From Meiothermus sp. Pnk-1 (GTDB lineage: Bacteria; Deinococcota; Deinococci; Deinococcales; Thermaceae): a stretch of DNA of 64,000 bases. The DNA lies in NCBI RefSeq assembly GCF_003226535.1, contig NZ_QKOB01000003.1, positions 372,001 through 436,000 on the forward strand, given 5' to 3'. The position numbers were made by a program, and so were the translations under genes. The notes under the pieces are model-generated. The model did no database searches. It saw only the letters and a program-made list of their open reading frames with translations, and was not told where the DNA came from. Below are positions 8,918 through 40,225 of this stretch, piece by piece (position 1 is the stretch's first letter; the number at the start of each line of letters is the position of its first letter).

Positions 8918-9325
8918 ATGTACCTGACCCGGCTCGCTTACGTCCACCTCAGGGTGCGGCAACTCGAGGCCGCTGTGACCTTTTACACCCGGTTTTTGGA
9001 TTTGCAGCTCTCAGAACGCTTTGAGCAGACCGCGCTCTTGGTCTCCTCGGAAAACGACGCCCACTTTGAGCTGGCCCTCACCGAAGGGGAGCCCGGGGGG
9101 CCGGTGACCCTGGGCTTCGCGGTGGCCTCGGAGGAAGACTTTATGGCCGCCCGGCGCTTTATGGAGCTCGAGGGAATACGACACACCCTCGAGGATCGCG
9201 GCATCGCCCACGTGCTCATCCTGCAGGACCCCGACGGCAACCCCGTGGAGATCTTCCTCGACCGGCGGAAGTCGGGGGGAGCCGCCTTCTGGCGCGGGGA
9301 ATCGAAAGCGATAGCATGGGGGTAA
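8918..9325 (+). CDS. VOC/glyoxalase-family metalloenzyme-like protein
   Basis: 135 residues forming the two beta-alpha-beta-beta-beta modules of the vicinal oxygen chelate superfamily. The typical first-strand LAYVHLRVRQLEAAVTFYTRFLDL contains a metal-ligand His, FELAL gives a Glu at the end of module one, and the C-terminal DPDGNPVEIFLDR supplies the last Glu. It could be a lactoylglutathione-lyase-like, dioxygenase-like or resistance-type protein; the substrate cannot be read from sequence. It is divergent from the AbrB-like gene. The ATG at 8918 was chosen over an upstream ATG because the promoter -10 ends seven bases before it. Confidence 0.82.
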   Translation: MYLTRLAYVHLRVRQLEAAVTFYTRFLDLQLSERFEQTALLVSSENDAHFELALTEGEPGGPVTLGFAVASEEDFMAARRFMELEGIRHTLEDRGIAHVLILQDPDGNPVEIFLDRRKSGGAAFWRGESKAIAWG

Positions 9326-9832
9326 CCAATCCCTTATGGCATTTACCGGCGTCGTACGCTGTACGTCTTACGCAATACGCAAAACGCCAGACGCTAAACG
9401 CGGGGGACGATCCCCTATCGGGACCGGCAGAGCCGGTACACCCGGAGGTAGATTCCCTTCGGGACAGCCTATGGCTGTACACCCAGAGGTAGATTCCCTA
9501 CCCCGCCTACCGGCGGCGAAGGAGACGCTTCTTTCGCCGAGCGAAGCGAGACGCTTGTTTCGGCGCAAGCCGTGGGGTGACGCTTCTTTCGCCGAGCGAA
9601 GTGAGACGCTTGTTTCGGCGTAAGCCGTGGGGTGGCGTCTCGGGACGGAGTACCGCCGTACACCTAGGGGACGATCCCCTATCGGGACGGAGCAAGCTCC
9701 GTACACCCGAGGGACCGATCCCCTTCGTATGACGTACGACGTAGGACGTTCAACCTGGGACGTACCACAGCAGGGAAAAGTTGGGGTGGTACGCTGCACG
9801 TCGTAGGCAAACCCACTGGCTTTGGGTTCTAG
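9326..9832. repeat. Gene-free block of modular intergenic repeats
   Basis: 507 bases without a credible gene. It holds inverted copies of the hairpin repeat described at 21386-21555. Stems are at 9423-9437, 9464-9478, 9645-9659 (imperfect) and 9687-9702. Two copies of the TTTCGCCGAGCGAAGcGAGACGCTTgTTTCGGCG module lie at about 9531-9570 and 9588-9625. Both ends carry ACGTACGAC-type stretches (9350-9400 and 9725-9770). Short open frames across it simply read through the repeats. Confidence 0.75.
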
Positions 9833-20650: not shown

Positions 20651-21361
20651 ATGAGCCTGCCTACCCTGCGTCAGATCCTCGAGCTGCCCGCCTTCGCTGG
20701 GGCGGAACTCCTGTCGGGCCATTCCCGCCTCGACCAGCTCATCACCTGGGTTCACGTCGCGGAAGTCATGGACGCTTGGCGCTTTTTGTCGGGCGGGGAA
20801 CTGCTGCTTTCCACGGGGCTGGAGCTGGCTCGAGCCACCCCGGAAGCCCAGGTCACCTACCTGCGCGCGCTGGCCCAGGCCGGGGCGCACGGCTTGGCGT
20901 TGGAACTGGTGCAGTGGATGCGGGAGGTGCCCGCCGAACTGCTACAAACGGCGCGGCTGCTCGAGTTCCCCATCTTGGTCTTCCGGAAGGAGGTCCGCTT
21001 CGCCGACCTCACCCGCGCCGCCCACGAGCGCATCCTGCGCCCGCATGGGGCGGGGGAAGAGGAGCCCTTGCTCGAGTCCCTCCTGGACGCTTTGATCGAA
21101 ACGGGCCGGAGCCAGGGCTTCCTCCGGCGCCAGCTCGGCCCCATCCTCTCCCTGCCCAGCCGCCCGCGTTCGACGCTGCTCTCGACGCTCGAGGCCCTGC
21201 TGGCTTCGCAGTTCAACATCGCCGAAACGGCCCGGCGGCTTGGGGTGCGGCGGCAGAGCATCTACTACCGCCTGGAGCAGCTAAAGGGCATGTTGGGCGA
21301 CCTCGACAGCACCGAGCGTCGGCTGGGGCTGTGGGTGGCGCTCGAGCTGCTCAAGCGGTAA
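20651..21361 (+). CDS. PucR-family transcriptional regulator, short form
   Basis: 236 residues. The N-terminal half matches the purine-catabolism regulator domain PF07905 (TLRQILELPAFAGAELLSG...VHVAEVMDAWRFLSGGELLLSTG). The C-terminus is the helix-turn-helix PF13556 (LEALLASQFNIAETARRLGVRRQSIYYRLEQLKGML). The central domain of typical 400-550-residue PucR proteins is missing. PucR proteins usually activate nearby catabolic genes. The likely targets are the aminotransferase and MmsA genes downstream, which share an upstream box. The ATG has no clear Shine-Dalgarno. Confidence 0.88.
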   Translation: MSLPTLRQILELPAFAGAELLSGHSRLDQLITWVHVAEVMDAWRFLSGGELLLSTGLELARATPEAQVTYLRALAQAGAHGLALELVQWMREVPAELLQTARLLEFPILVFRKEVRFADLTRAAHERILRPHGAGEEEPLLESLLDALIETGRSQGFLRRQLGPILSLPSRPRSTLLSTLEALLASQFNIAETARRLGVRRQSIYYRLEQLKGMLGDLDSTERRLGLWVALELLKR

Positions 21362-21689
21362 TCTTGGCTTCGCCGGCTTAGAATGTAGGGAATCTACCCC
21401 TAGGTGTACGAGCTTTGCTCGTCCTGACAGGGAATCTACCTCCGGGTGTACGGAGCTTGCTCCGTCCCGAAAGGAATCTACCTCTGGGTGTACCGGCCCT
21501 GCCGGTCCCGACAGGGGATCGTCCTCCGGGTGTACGGGCACCGCCCGTCCCGAGACGCTTCCTTCGCCGCCGGTAGGCGGGGTAGGGAATCTACCCCCGC
21601 GTTTAGGGTAAGACGTACGACGTACGACGTAAGTCGCGTTTAGCGTACGACGTACGACCTAAGTCGCGGGCGTACCAGACCCCCCGGCT
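21362..21689. repeat. Tandem array of four hairpin repeats plus ACGTACGAC tail
   Basis: Four units of about 42 bases follow one another from 21386: GGGAATCTACCyCyGGGTGTAC, a hairpin, then GTCCCGACA. The hairpin stems lie at 21408-21422 (ACGAGC/GCTCGT), 21450-21465 (ACGGAGC/GCTCCGT), 21492-21506 (ACCGGC/GCCGGT) and 21534-21548 (ACGGGC/GCCCGT). Flanks are conserved but stems differ, always keeping complementarity. A CGCCGCCGGTAGGCGG linker and a GGGAATCTACC remnant follow, then CGTACGACGTA repeats to 21665. There is no gene in this stretch. Confidence 0.85.
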
Positions 21690-40069: not shown

Positions 40070-40225
40070 GACGTGGTACGTCACACGTCCTTCGTACGAA
40101 GGAGATCGGTCCCCTAGGTGTACGGGCATCGCCCGTCCCGCTAGGGAATCTACCCCCGCGTTTAGCCTCTGGCGTTTTGCGTATAGCGTACGACGTAATT
40201 CGCGTTAGGGCCGCTATGCGGCCCT
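40070..40225. repeat. Isolated copy of the hairpin repeat
   Basis: GATCGGTCCCCTAGGTGTAC leads into the stem ACGGGC-ATC-GCCCGT (40122-40136), then CCCGCTA, GGGAATCTACCCCCGCGTTTAG and a CGTACGACGTAATTCGCG tail. Same module order as the array at 21386-21665. Confidence 0.75.

Follow-up and report, generated by a model that had tools for sequence, protein, structure and literature searches.

The window, i.e., the whole stretch of 64,000 nucleotides analysed here, belongs to a genome of 3.51 Mb from the family Thermaceae (hereafter G000), and it contains an intergenic island of composite repeats in which four hairpin-forming units stand in direct tandem, along with dispersed copies of the same unit (Table 1). 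A preliminary description had reported the four units at 21386-21555 and most of the dispersed copies; on re-reading the sequence all of them are present, with small corrections only. The downstream flank GTCCCGA, given there as common to the array, is found in units 2-4 and reads GTCCTGA in unit 1, and unit 4 is preceded by GGGGATCGTCC instead of the shared upstream flank GGGAATCTACC. In addition, one minus-strand copy at 9641-9664 (ACGGCG...CTCCGT), whose inner stem is mispaired, had been overlooked. The pattern GGTGTAC-N10..24-GTCCCG matches the window eight times, compared with 0.03 matches expected from shuffled sequences.

Table 1. Repeat units and associated features of the window, with positions counted from its first nucleotide.
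Feature	Position	Strand	Remarks
Island of composite repeats	21361..21687	+	intergenic, contains the array; ~6 bp in its place between the same two genes of Allomeiothermus silvanus
Spacer (GGGAATCTACCCC)	21386..21400	+	5' of unit 1
Unit 1	21401..21442	+	42 nt; stem ACGAGC/GCTCGT; GTCCTGA variant
Unit 2	21443..21484	+	42 nt; stem ACGGAGC/GCTCCGT
Unit 3	21485..21526	+	42 nt; stem ACCGGC/GCCGGT
Unit 4	21527..21553	+	stem ACGGGC/GCCCGT; other repeat module (GAGACGCTTCCTTCGCCG) in place of the 3' spacer
Unit core	9683..9709	-	stem ACGGAGC/GCTCCGT
Unit core	9641..9666	-	inner stem mispaired (ACGGCG/CTCCGT); 43 bp from the 9683..9709 core
Unit core	9460..9485	-	stem ACAGCC/GGCTGT
Unit core	9419..9444	-	stem ACCGGC/GCCGGT; 41 bp from the neighbouring core
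Solo unit core	40115..40140	+	stem ACGGGC/GCCCGT

The consensus of the unit can be written as YNGGTGTAC-hairpin-GTCCCGAnAGGG(GATCGTCC or AATCTACC)NN, and its predicted fold, CGGG-[TGT]-AC-stem-loop-stem-GT-CCCG, includes a 3-nt bulge. The window gave no match above the gathering score in Rfam, and none to the viral contigs compared.

The abundance of the unit was assessed by a genome-wide pattern search, which relied on the fixed flanks only and did not require the arms to be complementary. The pattern GGTGTAC-N8..16-GTCCCGA has 112 exact matches in G000 and none for the reversed control; it occurs 13 times in the congener Allomeiothermus silvanus DSM 9946 (G001), 10 times in each of two genomes of genus g2, and 0-7 times per Meiothermus-type genome, and the few exact matches in genus g4, probably Thermus, do not rise above the control. 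Copies were collected as stretches around the pattern matches, so that those diverged from the exact flanks are undercounted. Stricter patterns defined by spacer type were found in 15 (GATCG) and 6 (AATCTACC) of 111 Deinococcota genomes, all from three genera, and had no match elsewhere in this set. At L122 and L143, intergenic DNA that includes a unit is identical over at least 300 bp between A. silvanus and a Meiothermus-type genome, which suggests recent transfer.

The central claim of the preliminary description, that both arms of the stem change together, is borne out by these copies. In G000, 97.9% of the variable stem cells are paired, against a mean of 54.9% (maximum 65.2%) when the 3' arms are dealt out anew among the copies, so that complementarity is well in excess of that of random arms; all four variable pairs are intact in 77 of the 84 copies fetched, and the other seven miss a single pair. 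Outside G000, the corresponding values are 91.4% and 65.0%. When only the 46 distinct 25-mers are considered, the covariation score counted on the named structure is 0.287 versus 0.068 after shuffling, a value reached in none of 500 shuffles, with 95.7% versus 82.9% of the cells paired, and the signal is abolished by sliding the partner by 1-3 columns. The copies are kin, and independent paired changes are thus fewer than the count of cells. Twelve distinct four-base stems pair perfectly, mispaired stems are nearly all single copies, and the loop sequence varies freely. Stems limited to a few types that follow phylogeny, the case named in the preliminary description as speaking against its claim, are partly what G000 itself holds, with about seven discrete types, but this does not extend to the family as a whole. 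Taken together, pairing, covariation, and predicted fold support either selection on a folded hairpin or a mechanical need for it.

Comparison of filled and empty sites indicates how the unit comes to lie where it does. The hpaB gene of G012 contains exactly 42 nt (TCGGTGTACGGGTGCTGCCCGTCCCGATAGGGGATCGTCCGT, in the orientation of the unit) that are missing from 19 aligned orthologues, and its junction is unambiguous and free of duplication. Likewise, an IS605-type tnpB of G005 has an in-frame insertion of 14 codons, i.e., 42 nt (LVYGPSPSREGIVP), that is lacking from its tnpB homologues of G000, G001, and G002. In a second tnpB lineage, the site is empty in G041, where it reads GACCCC|TGGGAACC, and is filled in G001, G003, G005, G007, and G014 by one to three 42-nt units with differing hairpins. 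These hairpins were considered as a case of covariation in place at a homologous site, a reading that was dropped because one genome carries three units there, and the differences follow equally well from separate insertions or from the loss of different members of an array. The leader of thiD has a unit in G000 and is empty, apart from one G, in G003, G008, and G021. On a larger scale, A. silvanus has about 6 bp in place of the 327-bp island that surrounds the array of the window.

The left flanks of solo copies favour the motif CCYC, with C at its three fixed positions in 37, 32, and 39 of 45 copies; this is a preference and not an absolute rule, the hpaB site being one that departs from it. 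Over the registers in which target-site duplication was tested, the 5-mers on the two sides of the unit agree slightly more often than by chance, with a z of about 4.4 that is inflated by related copies, and partial duplication of the target may occur at some sites. At the level of sequence, the comparisons show insertion to be clean, devoid of consistent target duplication, and located mostly just 3' of CCYC. Mobility itself we infer from these empty sites rather than from direct observation.

Many of the insertions lie within genes. Predicted genes hold 33 of the 61 distinct copies outside G000, with all six frames used, compared with three of the 86 copies fetched from G000, all these gene calls being approximate because they come from a simple codon model. 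The hosts are unrelated, namely Cse1 (CasA), adenine deaminase (at its C-terminal end), HpaB, a TraG-type coupling protein, a TauE-type transporter (in G000), a gene with a RES domain, and the intein of a ribonucleotide reductase, and the unit found in tnpB has no stop codon in any of the six frames. The lengths of the parts are related as well: outside G000, the 13-nt hairpin goes with the longer linker in 28 of 30 copies and the 14-nt hairpin with the shorter one in 23 of 25 (P=4e-11), so that the total of 42 nt is kept, although part of this association could reflect shared descent of a single 14-nt subfamily. No such relation between hairpin and linker exists in G000 (P=1.0), where spacings of 40-43 bp occur. 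Two of the host genes deserve separate mention. In A. silvanus, two tandem units interrupt in frame the cse1 gene of a type I-E CRISPR system (L123). The RES-domain gene has the same insertion in G000, G001 (twice), G008, and G016 (L089:16349-16371, L124:3357-3379, L098, L144, and L161), with near-identical flanks, which indicates that the insertion travelled with the gene.

In G000, the units form intergenic arrays of one to five members, framed on the left by ACGTCATACGAAGGGGATCGGTCCC and on the right by CGCGTTTAGCGTCTGGCG or GAGACGCTTCCTTCGCCG. Only 3 of 66 neighbouring pairs are of a single hairpin type, where 9.9 would be expected (P=0.008), and serial insertion accounts for this mixing better than tandem duplication does; identical units in tandem in G018, G019, and G020 look like the product of duplication. 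Hairpin type in G000 goes with the unit's own linker (P=0.0005), whereas its association with the GATCG/AATCT spacer of the same unit is not clear (P=0.16), so that units also exchange parts.

The reading that we favour, with a probability of roughly 0.7, treats the unit as a mobile palindrome that is non-autonomous and exactly 42 nt long, with a hairpin recognised in trans, a length constrained by the frame when it lies in genes, and arrays built by serial insertion. An enzyme acting in trans would recognise the folded hairpin by its shape, i.e., about 8-10 bp with the 3-nt TGT bulge, most likely on single-stranded DNA. The stem sequence could then drift by paired changes and give rise to many subfamilies, and mispaired copies would stop multiplying. 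Within genes, the total length would have to stay a multiple of three and free of stop codons, and for this reason hairpin and linker would compensate for each other. With its 3' end (TCCNC or ACCCC), every copy would recreate the preferred target, so that later copies would insert beside earlier ones, and in G000 such adjacent insertion, together with the spread of larger composite islands, would yield intergenic mosaic arrays of mixed subfamilies. A bolder version, which we regard as doubtful, would place the unit in a new class of minimal mobile elements: one 42-nt hairpin, mobilised by a structure-reading enzyme of a kind not yet described, would be held at 14 codons open in all frames, which would let it spread through protein-coding genes, and its arms would possibly be rewritten from each other during transposition.

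The search for a transposase bears on the most obvious alternative. An associated REP-like transposase (TnpA-REP), which the preliminary description had proposed looking for, did not turn up: the only Y1 gene (PF01797) of G000 is an IS605-type tnpA adjoining its own tnpB, and no REP-type (RAYT) transposase was found there despite the 112 copies, so that a REP/RAYT system was rejected on gene content. More broadly, units might be the ends of, or small elements moved by, an IS200/IS605-type Y1 transposase, in a REP/RAYT-like or PATE-like manner. Elements of the IS200/IS605 group insert cleanly 3' of a short fixed motif, with neither target duplication nor terminal inverted repeats, and the Thermaceae unit resembles a non-autonomous derivative of them in its duplication-free insertion 3' of a preferred motif, its bulged hairpin, and its lack of terminal inverted repeats; moreover, some of the units are located within IS605-type genes or close to them. 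Even so, we find this origin rather unlikely. The sole Y1 gene of G000 is an ordinary tnpA whose element end is unlike the unit, the right end is different in those IS605-type copies that were compared, and no Y1 gene was found in G015, G016, G020, or G021, all of which carry units. The unit has one hairpin and not two ends, and the preferred target sequence accounts for its presence within tnpB. That location had also raised the suspicion that the unit was the right-end hairpin of an IS200/IS605 element, a candidate set aside since the unit is missing from homologous tnpB copies and the element has a different end.

Mobility is dispensable if template-switch copying through a quasi-palindrome rewrites one arm from the other, a process that calls for no selection either, and from which the near-perfect pairing, the covariation, and the freely varying loops would all be expected. 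It leaves unexplained, however, the clean 42-nt insertions, the CCYC target, and the copies in unrelated genes, and within a subfamily many copies have one and the same stem, with no diversification from locus to locus. As the whole explanation it is therefore quite improbable, but it can coexist with mobility as a source of new stems. A role in RNA, as terminators or mRNA stabilisers of REP-like kind in intergenic regions, might likewise keep the stems paired, and the placement of the G000 arrays, 17 between convergent, 30 between co-directional, and only 4 between divergent genes, a pair type that is thus avoided, is in line with it. A few of these arrays (L005, L158, and L160) have six consecutive T at their end, following the last hairpin or spacer, and could act as intrinsic terminators. 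Most arrays have no T run, though, those between co-directional genes show no preferred orientation relative to transcription (14 same, 16 opposite), roughly half of the copies outside G000 are in genes in either orientation, and insertion is left unexplained; we hold this role to be very unlikely as the reason for the stems.

The statement in the preliminary description that no family of this form is described was too strong in kind, as Rickettsia palindromic elements (RPEs) and small mobile hairpins are known, but it may hold for this 42-nt family, of which no published description in Thermaceae was found in the literature searched. The RPEs are dispersed palindromes found in frame in many unrelated protein genes (PMC10969869). 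The Thermaceae unit shares this in-frame residence in unrelated protein-coding genes, but it has 42 nt instead of about 100-150 bp, uses six frames instead of encoding family-specific conserved peptides, has a variable stem, and occurs in a different phylum; no sequence relation is claimed. Palindromic amphipathic repeat coding elements (PARCELs) likewise spread and diversify (PMC2996958); they differ in being tandem domains of 25 residues with a conserved amphipathic pattern, as opposed to 14 codons in any frame. Very small, possibly mobile hairpin elements occur in genes and spacers of fungal and sponge mitochondria (PMC2800124); besides being organellar, those of sponges have mostly conserved stems and varying loops, whereas the stems of the Thermaceae unit covary.

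REP and REPIN sequences associated with RAYT are similar as short, many-copy hairpins clustered into intergenic mosaics and avoiding the space between divergent genes, yet the Thermaceae units are solo or in direct tandem 40-43 bp apart rather than inverted hairpin pairs, their hairpin has no GTAG foot, no RAYT was found in G000, and insertions in genes are common in its relatives. A classical MITE is a poor match too, given the absence of duplication in hpaB and the ends of the unit, GGTGTAC and GATCGTCC, which are not inverted repeats. Cyanobacteria of the genus Nostoc have small dispersed repeats (SDR), very small mobile repeats of which some lie within heptamer repeats. We know of no system that combines the 42-nt length, a covarying stem, and length control linked to the frame.

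As a mobile palindrome, the unit would rank among the smallest mobile elements with precise filled and empty sites, and would give, after that of Rickettsia, another clear example of selfish palindromic DNA that resides in genes for proteins. Two constraints that are usually confounded, namely the frame in genes and the fold everywhere, can be told apart here through length compensation and stem covariation. Since culturable thermophiles offer plenty of copies, empty sites, and subfamilies, the movement of tiny palindromes is directly testable.

Other repeats accompany the units. Flanking the arrays, in the window at 9310-9400, 21600-21670, and 40150-40200, are degenerate repeats that combine GCGTNNN-like heptamers with ACGTACG-type runs (GCGTTTAGCGTCTGGCGTTTTGCGTA) and that resemble loose inverted arms around many arrays of G000. 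A second repeat module (GAGACGCTTCTTTCGCCG..., CCGGTAGGCGGGGTAGGGAATCTACC), present in the window at 9520-9640 and 21553-21600, directly abuts units in many arrays, and fragments of it also match A. silvanus. Finally, at L251/L088 the N-terminal end of the tnpB frame (IPYRDGLASVRQ) resembles another unit read in an antisense frame.
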